The translations under genes were made by a program, and so were the position numbers. Below, piece by piece: positions 24,301 through 63,300 of a stretch of 64,000 nt of DNA. Position 1 is the first letter of the stretch, and the number at the start of each line of letters is the position of its first letter. This DNA is from Tubulanus polymorphus (taxonomy: Eukaryota > Nemertea > Palaeonemertea > Tubulaniformes > Tubulanidae), in the NCBI RefSeq assembly GCF_964204645.1, contig NW_027437432.1, forward strand, positions 126,001-190,000, read 5' to 3'. Below the pieces are notes generated by a model that was not told the DNA's origin, did no database searches, and worked only from the letters and a program-made list of their open reading frames with translations.

Positions 24301-27300
24301 GTATATTTGGGTATATAGAAACAGTCTCACCATGTCAGCACCGCTGTCGAGGGCGCATAGTTTCAAGGCCTGGTTCTTACAATCAATAATCACATTCATC
24401 ATTACACAGCATTCTATCGGGAATAAGTAATCAGTTCCTTTACTGCCTTTCTTTAACCACATTTCAAACGCTTTCAATGTCCTACAAAACATAATTATGA
24501 CAATAATTACAGCTTTATTCAGTCATAAATTTACCCCAGCAAATCATCCATAACCAATTACAGTGCAATTTAATATAGCTAAACCAATCAGATTGCAGGA
24601 TCGATGAAGCTTCTCAACCAATCAGATTGCAGGATGAAGTGTCTCAACCAATCAGGTTGCAGGGTAAAAGGGTCTGTTTCTTGTACATGGTTGATGGGGT
24701 TAGAGATGATTTGCTGATTACAAATTGAATACATTTCTCACACCACATATCACACTGTAACCTGTATATCCATCATACACTGTACCCCGATACACTGTAC
24801 CCTGATACACTGTACCCCGATACACTGTACCCCGATACACTGTACTCTGATACACTGTACCCTGTATTTCCATTCTATATATAAAACCTTTAGATAGAAA
24901 TTATCTGCTAAAGTAGAATGGTCACTTATAACATAAAATAAGTCTTTAGGTAGTTTCAATGTTTGTTTTAGCAGCCAAATAAATGTTCAATGTAACACTT
25001 ATAGAAAATAACGGTTACATCCAGTATGAGAGAGAGAGAGAGATAGCTATTAATTAAACACACTTTTCGCCAATTAGATTCTGTTAGTTCACAGTATTTA
25101 GATTGTTTAATAGATGCATTCAGATCCTTATATAAGCTGTACATGCACATGTACATGCACATGTACATGTATATATACTATTGAAGTTATAAGCATAATA
25201 AATGATATTAGTTGAAAAGCTTTATAAACTCTGGGTTATTCTTAATAAAGCAAACTGTCAAATCTCAAAGATATTTTCAAATTTGAAACCTGAATTTTGA
25301 TGAGAGGTGACAATTTTTCTGTATAAATGATTGAAAATGTGGCCCACTTTTCAACGCTCCAATTTTCACGGCAGTTCGCGCTGCATGTTATAAATTCTTT
25401 AAACACACATTGTTGACCTTCGGGTGATCCAGTGTATAATGTGTTCAAATAGCAATTCCGAATCCTTAAATACAATATAACATCTCACTAATCAACTCAA
25501 TGTTTCCTCATTCTCTAAAACCAGACTTGGGTTCAGTTTCATGAAAATCTTTAAGCTAAAAACGGTTGAGTTTGATTTTGTTGTCATCTTGAAAACATGA
25601 AGCAACTACATGTACATGGAAATTGAACTTTTTGGAGAAACCCGAGTTTCATTTCTAAAACAGTTTATTCTAGAAAGATGAGACATCTTTTCTAGAGGTA
25701 TCTTTAGATCAAATCACTAGTAGACAATTCGATGATCTCATGGGGGGAATTATGGAGACAGACATCCTTTCTGAAAGGGTCGACGGATCAAGGTACCTCA
25801 GGTGAAGGTAATAGGAATTCAATTAAATAAAATGAATTGATTTGAAAGTTTACCTCTTTCCTGCAGCTTCAATCATATCAGCAGCCATTAGTTTTAACCG
25901 GTGATCGAGATGTTCAGCGAATACCTCTTCAGGCCAGTGTAAATCACGTATAAACGACTGTAACGCATCTAATTTCCATAACATATCCTCAGATGTAGCA
26001 CATCCATTACTGAAATAATCATCGCCATATTTCACTTTACTTTGACGACAAACTTTGTTCCAACCCTTGTGGCTACCTCCCCCCTACTGGAGTAGTGGTC
26101 TTACCCTTGTGGCTACCTCCCCCCTACTGGAGTAGTGGTCTTACCCTTGTGGCTACCCCCCCTGCTGTAGTAATGGTCTTACCCTTGTGGCTCCCAACGC
26201 TCTTTTTCAAATCCTTTATGAATTGATTGAGCGATTGAAGACTCCATCAGATCAACGTATCGTACGACTTGAGGTGCAAAAACATCCCGTAAATGGTTGT
26301 GAAATTTACCACCGTTTAAATTTTCTGAAACGAACAAAAAATGAGAAATTCTCATTGAAACAAGTTATCTCAGAGCCGACCATGGCAAGTGAGGATGCAC
26401 CAGGTGTCACTAGTGTGCAGTAGGACAACAGTTACTGCGGCAATAGAGAATTCCACTTATGTCAAGTGAGGAACCACCAGGTGTCACTAGTGTTCAGTAG
26501 GACATTAACTACTGCAGCAATAGATAATTCCACTTATTTCATGTGAGATTCCACCAGGTGTCGCTATTATCGAGAATGAACTACGTTTAGGTTGAACAGT
26601 CGTATTGATACGGGCATGCCATCTGGCGGGATGTACCGGAGAATTTGTAAATGAATGAGTTAATGTATAACATACCGTCATTGCGTAGATAGTCATTGAG
26701 TAATTGGAATAGAGGGAAACTATCCCAGGTATCCGGGGGTTGACCTTCTAACACAGCATCCATATCAACAGCAAACAGTGACCAGAATATCTCAGCATGT
26801 TCAACGAGTAAATCACTAAACCAAGCAAATGCCTACAACATCAATATCAATAAATCATCATCAGTTCTGTATCACCACCAGGGGGCGTTCGTTACTCAAT
26901 GTATATTTCATTTCAACCATAGCCCAGTTCACTGAATTCTAATTCTCTGAATCCCAGTTCCATGGTTAGTGTTTTTTTCCAATTTCAGTTTCACAGTTTG
27001 AATTATAACCTGTTTGTTGGTAGTTTCCAGTTCTATCTTCCACAGTTGTGGAAATTGATTCTTTAATTCTAAGTGACCAACAATTTGTAAGTTTTCAATG
27101 AAATATGAACTCATTAGTTACAACTGTGCAACTGGAGTCATCACCTTTAAGTCCAGAAGTAGTCTCTTTAATCTTATGGCTGGTCACAAATTGTAAGATA
27201 GGCTATAGATGGTGTTAAGCGATGTCCGTGTGATACTGGGTGCTGGTTAAAATTCAAATAAACTCTTGAGAAAAACTTCTGCCAAAACCTTCACATTTAT

Positions 27301-60300: not shown

Positions 60301-63300
60301 GAGAGAGAGAGAGAGAGAGACAACAGCAACATGCTGAGTGAGAACAACTGTGGATGCACACATTAACAGTGTCACCACACATCTGAGAGTGAGAACGCAC
60401 AGACAATGAGAGTTATTACAGTAAACAGTAAACACTGAGATATATAGTTACAGTAGACAGTACTAGAAGATTTACAGTCAACTTTTAGAAGATTAGTTTT
60501 AAGGACTTGAAAATGAGAGGTACCCTACGGCATACTCCCCCCGACCCTCAATACCATCGGGCAATATCATTACTATGATTATGACACGTATAAGCGATCA
60601 CTATGGAAACAAAATGAATATATATTCATTTAGAGTTGTACGATGAGGAACACACACGCAGACACGGACTGACGCACAACAGGCCATGAGTAGTTAGTGA
60701 TTTGTGGATGTAACGACAACATTATCTAGCAACAATCGTTTAAATCGGGGTTCTTAGTCGAGGGGGGAAAAATAATAATTAAAAAACATTCCAAATACCA
60801 CCGAAATAAAGATATATAATATCTACAATCATTAGTGCTTACCTTCAACTAGATTTATTAATTTATTTTTTTTTTTTTGAGAGGAAAAAGTTTGAGAAAG
60901 AAAAGGATTAGTTTTCGCTTAATTATTGTCGGTAACCGTCGACGACACGAGAAAAAAAAAAGACGAGAAAAAATTGTTTTCATAAAAATTGATAGGAAAT
61001 TCAGAGATGGTCCCTTGATAGAAGCAGGTCAAGGTCAATCAAATGGAGGAACGAAACTGGAGTAACAGACGCTAATCGTCTTTAGAATTAATCCTTTCAG
61101 GCGAAGAAAGAAAAATCCACTCCCACTCACGCCACTCCCCTCCCTCCCCTCCCCTCCCCCTCACTGAAATATAAACATCATGAATAAATACGCACAGATA
61201 AAATGATTAGGTAACATTTTTAATTTTTTGCAGAAATTTCTAAACTTCAAAAACACCGGTTCCAGTTTCACAGATCTGTAATTTTACTCTTAAAACACGT
61301 TGAATCTAATGTTAGTGAAAGTGAACCCGGTTCACAGTGAACCCAATTCCTCCTCAGTTAAAATATAACTGTTTAGTCAAATTCTAATTCTAGGATGATT
61401 TTTACCTTTGCCATTTCTTCACAATGCATCAAACGACCATCTAATTCTCGTCTTACTTGAGCGGCTTGTTCATCAGCATTATCCAACTATAAATATAAAA
61501 TATAGGGGGCGTTCATCAGCATTATCCAACTACAAATATAAAATATAGGGGGCGTTCATCAGCATTATCCAACTACAAATATAAAATATAGGGGGCGTTC
61601 ATCAGCATTATCCAACTACAAAATATAACAATATGACTATAATAGATTTGACAAATCTTATGCTACAGGTGGCGCATGGCACTGCACGGTACTGCGCACG
61701 GCTGCATGGCACTGCACAGTACTGCGCACGGCTGCATGGCACTGCATGGTATGGCATGTCACTGCACGGCACATGCAGCTTTCAAACATCAATACTAACA
61801 TGCTATCAGTCTAAACTCAATTATTACCATGACAACCACTACTATTGAAATACTCCTTCAAACAAGTCTCCTCCAAGTTCACTCCGGTGCTCCAACTCCA
61901 CTCTGACCTCACATCGTAGAGATCTTTGAACTGTGACCTCGATCATGGGGTACTTTGGCCTCAATTTAGGGAGAACTATAACCTCAGTCTAGGGAGAGCA
62001 ATGACCTCAGTTCAGGGAGAACTTTGACCTCAGTTTAGGGAGAACTTTGACCTCAGTTTAGGGAGAACTATGACCTCAGTTTAGGGAGAACTTTGACCTC
62101 AGTTTAGGGAGAACTTTGACCTCAGTTTAGGGAGAACTATGACCTCAATTTAGGGAGAACTATGACCTCAGTTTAGGGAGAACTTTGACCTCAGTTTAGG
62201 GAGAACTATGACCTCAGTTTAGGGAGAACTTTGACCTCAGTTTAGGGAGAACTATGACCTCAGTTTAGGGAGAACTATGACCTCAGTTTAGGGAGAACTT
62301 TGACCTCAGTTTAGGGAGAACTATGACCTCAGTTTAGGGAGAACTTTGACCTCAGTTTAGGGAGAACTATGACCTCAGTTTAGGGAGCAAAGAGAGTCAT
62401 AGTTTTAAGGGCAGCCTCTGCAATTTATATCCATTCAGTCATATTGAAATCTGGCCACAAAATTTGACACATTTTTCACGTAGCTTTCTATTTCATCACA
62501 AAGTATTTCAGTCAATTCAGGTGAATATTATATTTCAAGAGCTTTTTTTCTGTTTGTTGTAAATCGACAGCATTGATGATAAAACTACCACAGGACATTA
62601 ACACATTTAACATTCACACACTGATAAATAAATGCGATAATATAAATATCGGTGTCATATCCTGTTTCATCCGTTAAACAACCTAAATATAATTCATCCT
62701 GGTTGCCATCGGGGAGAATAGGTATTTACATCACCAGCCGTACACGGCTTGTAGCAGTTATTGAAGAGTCAACTGAGTTTAATAATTGATAATATACGAC
62801 CTGTAAAACTACGTGGATCGGATATATGATAGATCACGCAGTTCACACCTACACACTATATCTATAATTGTGAATCATTTGATCACGGACAATTGTGATC
62901 AGTTCTGATATCACTAATAAATCAAGATCATACACAATAACTGTGTAATATACAGGGTCCGATCTAAGGAATGAAAGCCACTTGCCCGGGGGGGGCAAGC
63001 GTATCTGAAATTTCGCTTGCCCCCTCCAAAAGCTACTTGCCCTACACAGGCAGTCCGATTGGTGGCGCTATCATCCGTTGTATCTAGTGGGGAAAAAGCT
63101 TTGCGATATAAAATTGCACTAGCCCGGGGGACAAGTGATAATGATAACCTACTCGCCCTGATGAGAATATACTTGACCCGGGCAATCGGACAAGTGCTTA
63201 GATCGCACCCCGAATATACGAGAGAAATCCGCAATTCATTGAAAAGTGTAAATATTTGAGCATCAGTGATGATGGTTCATAGTCTTTGGCTGAAACGTTG

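Follow-up and report, generated by a model that had tools for sequence, protein, structure and literature searches.

Short tandem arrays spanning splice junctions of the CADPS and BANP genes in a repeat-dense contig of Tubulanus polymorphus

Introduction

Duplication of splice junctions on a local scale is already known, and several precedents exist for the five tandem arrays described here, which span junctions of the CADPS and BANP genes in a 64,000-nucleotide stretch (the window) of the nemertean Tubulanus polymorphus. The closest described system is the human IFI6 (6-16) gene, in which the units of a minisatellite supply several splice donors (Turri et al. 1995, cited in PMC4526556). As far as the account in that citing paper goes, the likeness lies in a tandem array at an exon end with a donor in every unit; the difference is that downstream units are reported there as donors of mRNAs, whereas the Tubulanus arrays are known from sequence and three of the five multiply acceptors. 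Ma et al. 2016 (PMC4974935) describe how the RNA-dependent RNA polymerase (RdRp) gene of potato acquired an intron when a stretch of intron and exon, 3' splice site included, was directly duplicated. The duplicated segment held a putative branch site, the 3' splice site and the exon start, which is where it resembles our cases; in potato, however, a new intron and a new exon arose from the duplicate, whereas the Tubulanus copies are part of existing introns and show no intron gain.

Local tandem duplication also multiplies splice signals in cases from Drosophila (PMC2891723, PMC2809761), but the model outlined there duplicates exonic sequence only, whereas the Tubulanus units span one real junction and are present in 2.3-11 copies. 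Introners, as sketched in PMC9860276, are likewise repeated sequences with splice sites; they are dispersed over many genes, in contrast to the four Tubulanus units searched for in the genome, which are single-locus. Against this background, the five arrays are very probably ordinary minisatellites whose founding duplications happened to include a junction and were tolerated where one intact junction stayed. An excess of such arrays at exon borders is not established: the answer depends on the null model, and none of those used makes the excess strong.

Tandem arrays over splice junctions

Five of the 72 internal junctions of CADPS and BANP lie inside a tandem array identified by Tandem Repeats Finder (TRF) with a score of at least 50 and a period of at least 7, a junction being counted as spanned when it falls inside the array by at least 5 bp on either side. 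Four are CADPS junctions and one belongs to BANP, with three 3' splice sites (acceptors) and two 5' splice sites (donors) among them. A TRF score cut-off of 30 brings in one more, weaker row (score 40; 15 bp x 2.9), which spans the 3' splice site at 40579. The five arrays are 96-701 bp long and consist of 2.3-11 copies of units of 40-63 bp with 94-98% matches (TRF), that is, head-to-tail repeats within the unit range of minisatellites (~10-100 bp). As in the IFI6 minisatellite, each unit carries a splice site, which gives 19 extra sites in total: 16 acceptors and 2 donors (18 sites) in CADPS, and 1 donor in BANP. Scored with splice matrices built on the remaining sites of the window (34 donors and 33 acceptors, the five test sites being excluded), 14 of the 19 equal the used site. 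Whole exons with their two borders are absent from the units, each of which holds 10-28 exon bases and one border, and this sets the arrays apart from tandem exon duplications.

The junctions were defined by exact spliced alignment of the species' own proteins, P0001 (CADPS) and P0121 (BANP), to the window, with an aligner that allowed GT-AG or GC-AG introns only; all the donors chosen were GT. The CADPS/CAPS gene (18281..63998, minus strand) has 27 exons in the window and the Pfam domains MUN, C2_CAPS and PH. Its 5' end (residues 1-72) falls outside the window, and P0001 (1274 residues) matches exactly from residue 73. The BANP gene (7704..12529, plus strand) has 11 coding exons, exactly matched by the BANP-like P0121 of T. 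polymorphus, and a Pfam BEN domain. Together the two models comprise 36 introns, and at each of the five array-spanned junctions the only copy used in the protein models is the one joined to the full exon. P0001 shares 87% identity with the CADPS of Lineus longissimus and aligns with it without gaps across all four array-spanned junctions, so that the authentic exon is the copy continuing into the full exon, and these four junctions are supported twice. The BANP junction at 12247 is placed by the database protein alone, since that region is not conserved in Lineus BANP.

These models bear out most of the initial annotation, which had reported four CADPS junctions and one BANP junction as tandemly multiplied, with unit lengths of 43, 54, 63, 40 and 42 bp at three 3' and two 5' sites; TRF and the spliced alignments return the same positions, lengths and site types. 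Its range of 9-28 exon bases per unit agrees with the 10-28 found here, while the 15 intron bases of the BANP unit fall a little short of its range of 20-40, and the estimate of about 38 introns is corrected to 36. The events had also been called independent. They look so, given that the unit lengths are unrelated and that the four CADPS arrays, when searched against the whole assembly with very common words skipped, matched their own locus only, with the exception of opposite-strand matches within the 39-kb locus that are due to an inverted copy there (see below).

In the first CADPS array (61468..61634, minus strand), a 43-bp unit is repeated 3.8 times over the 3' splice site at 61486, the exon end being taken from the P0001 alignment, and each unit joins 19 exon bases to 24 intron bases. 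Three extra acceptors lie upstream of the used site, from which exon sequence would begin at 61529, 61572 and 61615; they score 10.9, 10.9 and 7.1 versus 11.4 for the used one. The junction between units contains GCCCCC, a motif present in neither the adjoining exon nor the intron flank.

The second array (41453..41631, minus strand; 54 bp x 3.3) spans the 3' splice site at 41480, where the PH-domain exon starts according to the P0001 alignment, with 28 exon and 26 intron bases per unit. Two extra acceptors, 41534 and 41588, lie upstream of the used site and all three score 9.6. An identical 15-mer bounds the array on both ends, on the intron side and on the exon side. Every 54-bp unit within 41453-41631 also has, on the same strand, a donor-like ATGG/gtaaat (score 6.5) 17 nt past the acceptor, so that splicing might in theory treat the unit as a 17-nt micro-exon.

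The longest of the arrays (39144..39844, minus strand; 63 bp x 11.0) covers the 3' splice site at 39166, again placed by P0001, with 23 exon and 40 intron bases per unit. It provides 11 extra acceptors reaching to 39854, the last one just beyond the TRF row. The used site and nine of the extra copies score 10.1, and the two outermost copies 7.3 and 5.6. Beside the outermost direct copy stands an inverted acceptor copy (39838..39902, minus strand), made of two 32-nt arms (39838-39869 and 39871-39902) that are 91% complementary and separated by 1 nt; the arms are predicted to fold into a strong RNA hairpin covering the acceptor at 39854 (-51.6 kcal/mol, z -8.8).

The fourth CADPS array (26063..26192, minus strand; 40 bp x 3.3) multiplies a donor, the 5' splice site at 26182/26183 (last exon base 26183 in the P0001 alignment), with 10 exon and 30 intron bases per unit. 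Two more gtaag donors follow 26145 and 26105, and a decayed donor in the final partial copy follows 26065; the three intact donors all score 9.4 and the decayed one 2.9. A 12-mer is common to both ends of this array.

In BANP, the array (12221..12316, plus strand; 42 bp x 2.3) spans the 5' splice site whose last exon base is 12247 in the P0121 alignment, and the unit joins 27 exon bases to 15 intron bases. There is one extra donor, after 12289, and both it and the used donor score 6.6. The array continues into a (CAT)n tract ending at 12357. As a separate observation, if the transcript were left unspliced at 12247, the frame would stay open through the 42-bp repeat and (CAT)n-encoded poly-histidine (12221-12364, plus strand), with a stop just after 12361, and this unspliced frame represents a possible alternative C-terminus. 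The case was also considered as a mere in-frame coding repeat and rejected as such, given that the species' own P0121 splices at 12247.

Spanning arrays and chance

Tandem arrays of all periods (TRF score of at least 50) make up 34.9% of the window, yet they take in just 107 of the 4905 exonic bases. When the arrays were displaced relative to the genes by 1719 circular shifts, which are not mutually independent, a mean of 24.0 of the 72 junctions was covered, with a minimum of 7 versus the 5 observed. Junctions are thus depleted of arrays compared with gene-blind placement, as purifying selection predicts.

A more specific expectation was obtained from founder nulls, in which a duplication of the observed unit length is placed anywhere in non-coding sequence or over one junction, leaving one intact junction. 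These nulls assume that duplications falling within coding exons are not tolerated, and the founder length is taken as the best-scoring TRF period. TRF rows with a period below 7 or a score below 50 were dropped and merged compound arrays counted once; as a check, a 300-bp compound array was also excluded. With the present array lengths, 1.4-1.8 spanning arrays are expected and the probability of five or more is 0.010-0.033. If the arrays are collapsed to one unit, which we judge the right choice because the present array length comes from later growth, 1.8-2.7 are expected (P 0.026-0.121), and this range widens to 1.4-3.4 (P 0.011-0.243) when the overlap demanded is set at values between 1 and 10 bp. 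Taken collapsed and with no strict cut, the founder null gives P 0.05-0.24. After collapsing, the repeated unit makes up 5.4% of the non-coding sequence, versus 6.9% of junctions (5/72) lying within one. Finally, when the set of array-bearing (host) introns is kept constant, 3.8-4.4 spanning arrays are expected (P 0.32-0.45); this expectation is high because four of the five spanning arrays are in introns that are short after collapse (93, 95, 162 and 289 bp). The assertion that five cases among about 38 introns clearly exceed chance is therefore not upheld by the founder and host-fixed nulls taken together.

Several points weigh against this assessment. Strict requirements, either margins of 10 bp or a unit length of 30 bp or more, lower the expectation to 1.4-2.0 spanning arrays and P to 0.01-0.04; with uncollapsed lengths, P is 0.01-0.03 whichever score and period cut is applied. 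All five spanning units fall in the narrow range of 40-63 bp. In addition, should short introns be favoured by junction duplication in the first place, the null with host introns fixed would be circular in part. These results leave room for a two- to threefold bias toward junctions. A wider proposition would be that, in this tandem-repeat-dense compartment, splice junctions gain or keep local duplications at two to three times the rate expected from random placement, so that exon borders would be a recurrent source of stacked sites of equal strength and occasionally of in-frame isoforms (the +14 residues of BANP, see below); we give it a small chance of being right.

Origin of the arrays

The course of events that we favour, ordinary minisatellite formation, would begin with local duplications of ~40-60 bp at random positions, five of which happened to hold an exon border in the duplicated segment. 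Such a duplication would be tolerated because the outer copy still joins a complete exon to a complete splice site, and the array would later have expanded by slippage or unequal exchange. Splicing presumably continues at the copy joined to the full exon, the remaining copies being decoys whose use would mostly yield transcripts with premature stops. The mechanism of duplication, its tolerance and the little use of the decoys are what we infer here, and the 12- and 15-nt direct repeats at the ends of two arrays suit slippage or unequal exchange. Of the two explanations put forward in the initial annotation, it is tolerance through the remaining true site that we take as the best reading, and the observed count is compatible with random placement.

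The other explanation, duplication templated at exon borders, belongs to a broader alternative in which borders are hot spots that template or promote duplication, for instance through conflict between replication and transcription or through RNA-templated repair, and the excess is a true one. The strict and the uncollapsed nulls given above speak for it, with five arrays against at most 2.0 expected under the former. However, the collapsed null with no strict cut and the one with fixed host introns do not, and the hypothesis of an excess was formed on the same window that was used to test it. Moreover, templated duplications should end at the border, yet the exon-side ends of the arrays lie 10, 19, 23, 27 and 28 nt inside the exon and, among the five spanning arrays, no unit as delimited by TRF ends at an exon border, which disfavours templating. 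A genome-wide probe for duplicated donors has little power: CAGGTAAGT copies spaced 29-59 bp apart form 8 pairs at 5 places, compared with 26 pairs for the reversed control pattern, and when the 240 nt upstream of the first site were viewed by eye at six of the eight pair loci, no convincing open exon was seen. Since the single CAGGTAAGT motif is itself no commoner than its reversed control (1958 versus 1996 sites), the probe says little either way. Taken together, we consider a border hot spot improbable, and five cases are insufficient as evidence for a border-specific duplication mechanism or for a new duplication process.

It is also conceivable that the extra sites have been retained because they serve alternative splicing or regulated nonsense decay. 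The 14 of 19 extra sites that score the same as the used one would fit this, as would the predicted products: the extra BANP donor, if used, adds VQLHHHHHHSLQNQ in frame (+14 residues), and all 18 extra CADPS sites (16 acceptors and 2 donors) lead to a premature stop if used. On the other hand, copies that are 94-98% alike (TRF) are expected to have intact sites from youth alone, the database proteins contain only the exon-joined copy, and the predicted hairpin that takes in the outermost acceptor of the 63-bp array looks accidental. Retention for function thus appears very unlikely to us, and alternative splicing via the extra copies is possible as far as the sequence goes.

Some arrays might instead be assembly artefacts on a poorly placed contig. 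The contig in question (C15; 213,652 bp) is small beside others of 16-32 Mb and therefore probably unplaced; its first bases already belong to a 32-bp array, and arrays are far denser on it than in the other stretches sampled. The spanning arrays, however, are just 96-701 bp long, the copies in the 63-bp and 40-bp arrays show scattered differences, and the flanking exons are intact, all of which makes an artefact a most unlikely source. That the units are introners or another dispersed intron-making element has next to no probability, since nothing was found in its favour, no sequence common to the five units is apparent by eye, and a dispersed element is rejected for the four CADPS arrays, which were searched in the assembly and each of which occurs at its own place only.

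Even as ordinary minisatellites, the five cases make a natural set for studying splice-site choice by the spliceosome where two to twelve near-identical sites follow one another, because many of these sites differ in position and not in sequence. The arrays also exemplify how the making of new introns by tandem duplication could begin.

The repeat-dense contig and its neighbouring features

The contig itself is perhaps more unusual than the five cases, as about one third of the window consists of tandem arrays. Array cover is 19.4% and 32.0% in the two 5-kb ends of the same contig, 7.3% in a 200-kb stretch of another contig (C2) and 1.5% in eight 3-kb loci, stretches that are few and unmatched for gene content, the one from C2 looking transposon-rich. 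In that stretch (C2, 15.0-15.2 Mb), many long open frames have, by eye, the look of a large Polinton-type element (DNA transposon or virus-like), and retroelement-like frames occur alongside. Telomere repeats near the contig ends were considered and rejected, the longest TTAGGG/CCCTAA run being one unit in both 5-kb ends and in the window.

Arrays fill whole introns of CADPS as well. The intron at 18380-21854 measures 3475 bp, of which 3394 bp are a single 20-bp array (~170 copies), with ~40 bp left at each end. At 42051-47008, a 69-bp array of ~72 copies occupies most of another CADPS intron, and its minus strand runs through 1664 codons without a stop. Finally, a stop-to-stop open frame of 336 residues lies antisense within a CADPS intron (37415-38422, plus strand) and has a homeodomain at its end (Pfam Homeobox_KN, E 4.6e-11; Homeodomain, E 7.7e-10); it is perhaps a nested single-exon homeobox gene of the TALE type.

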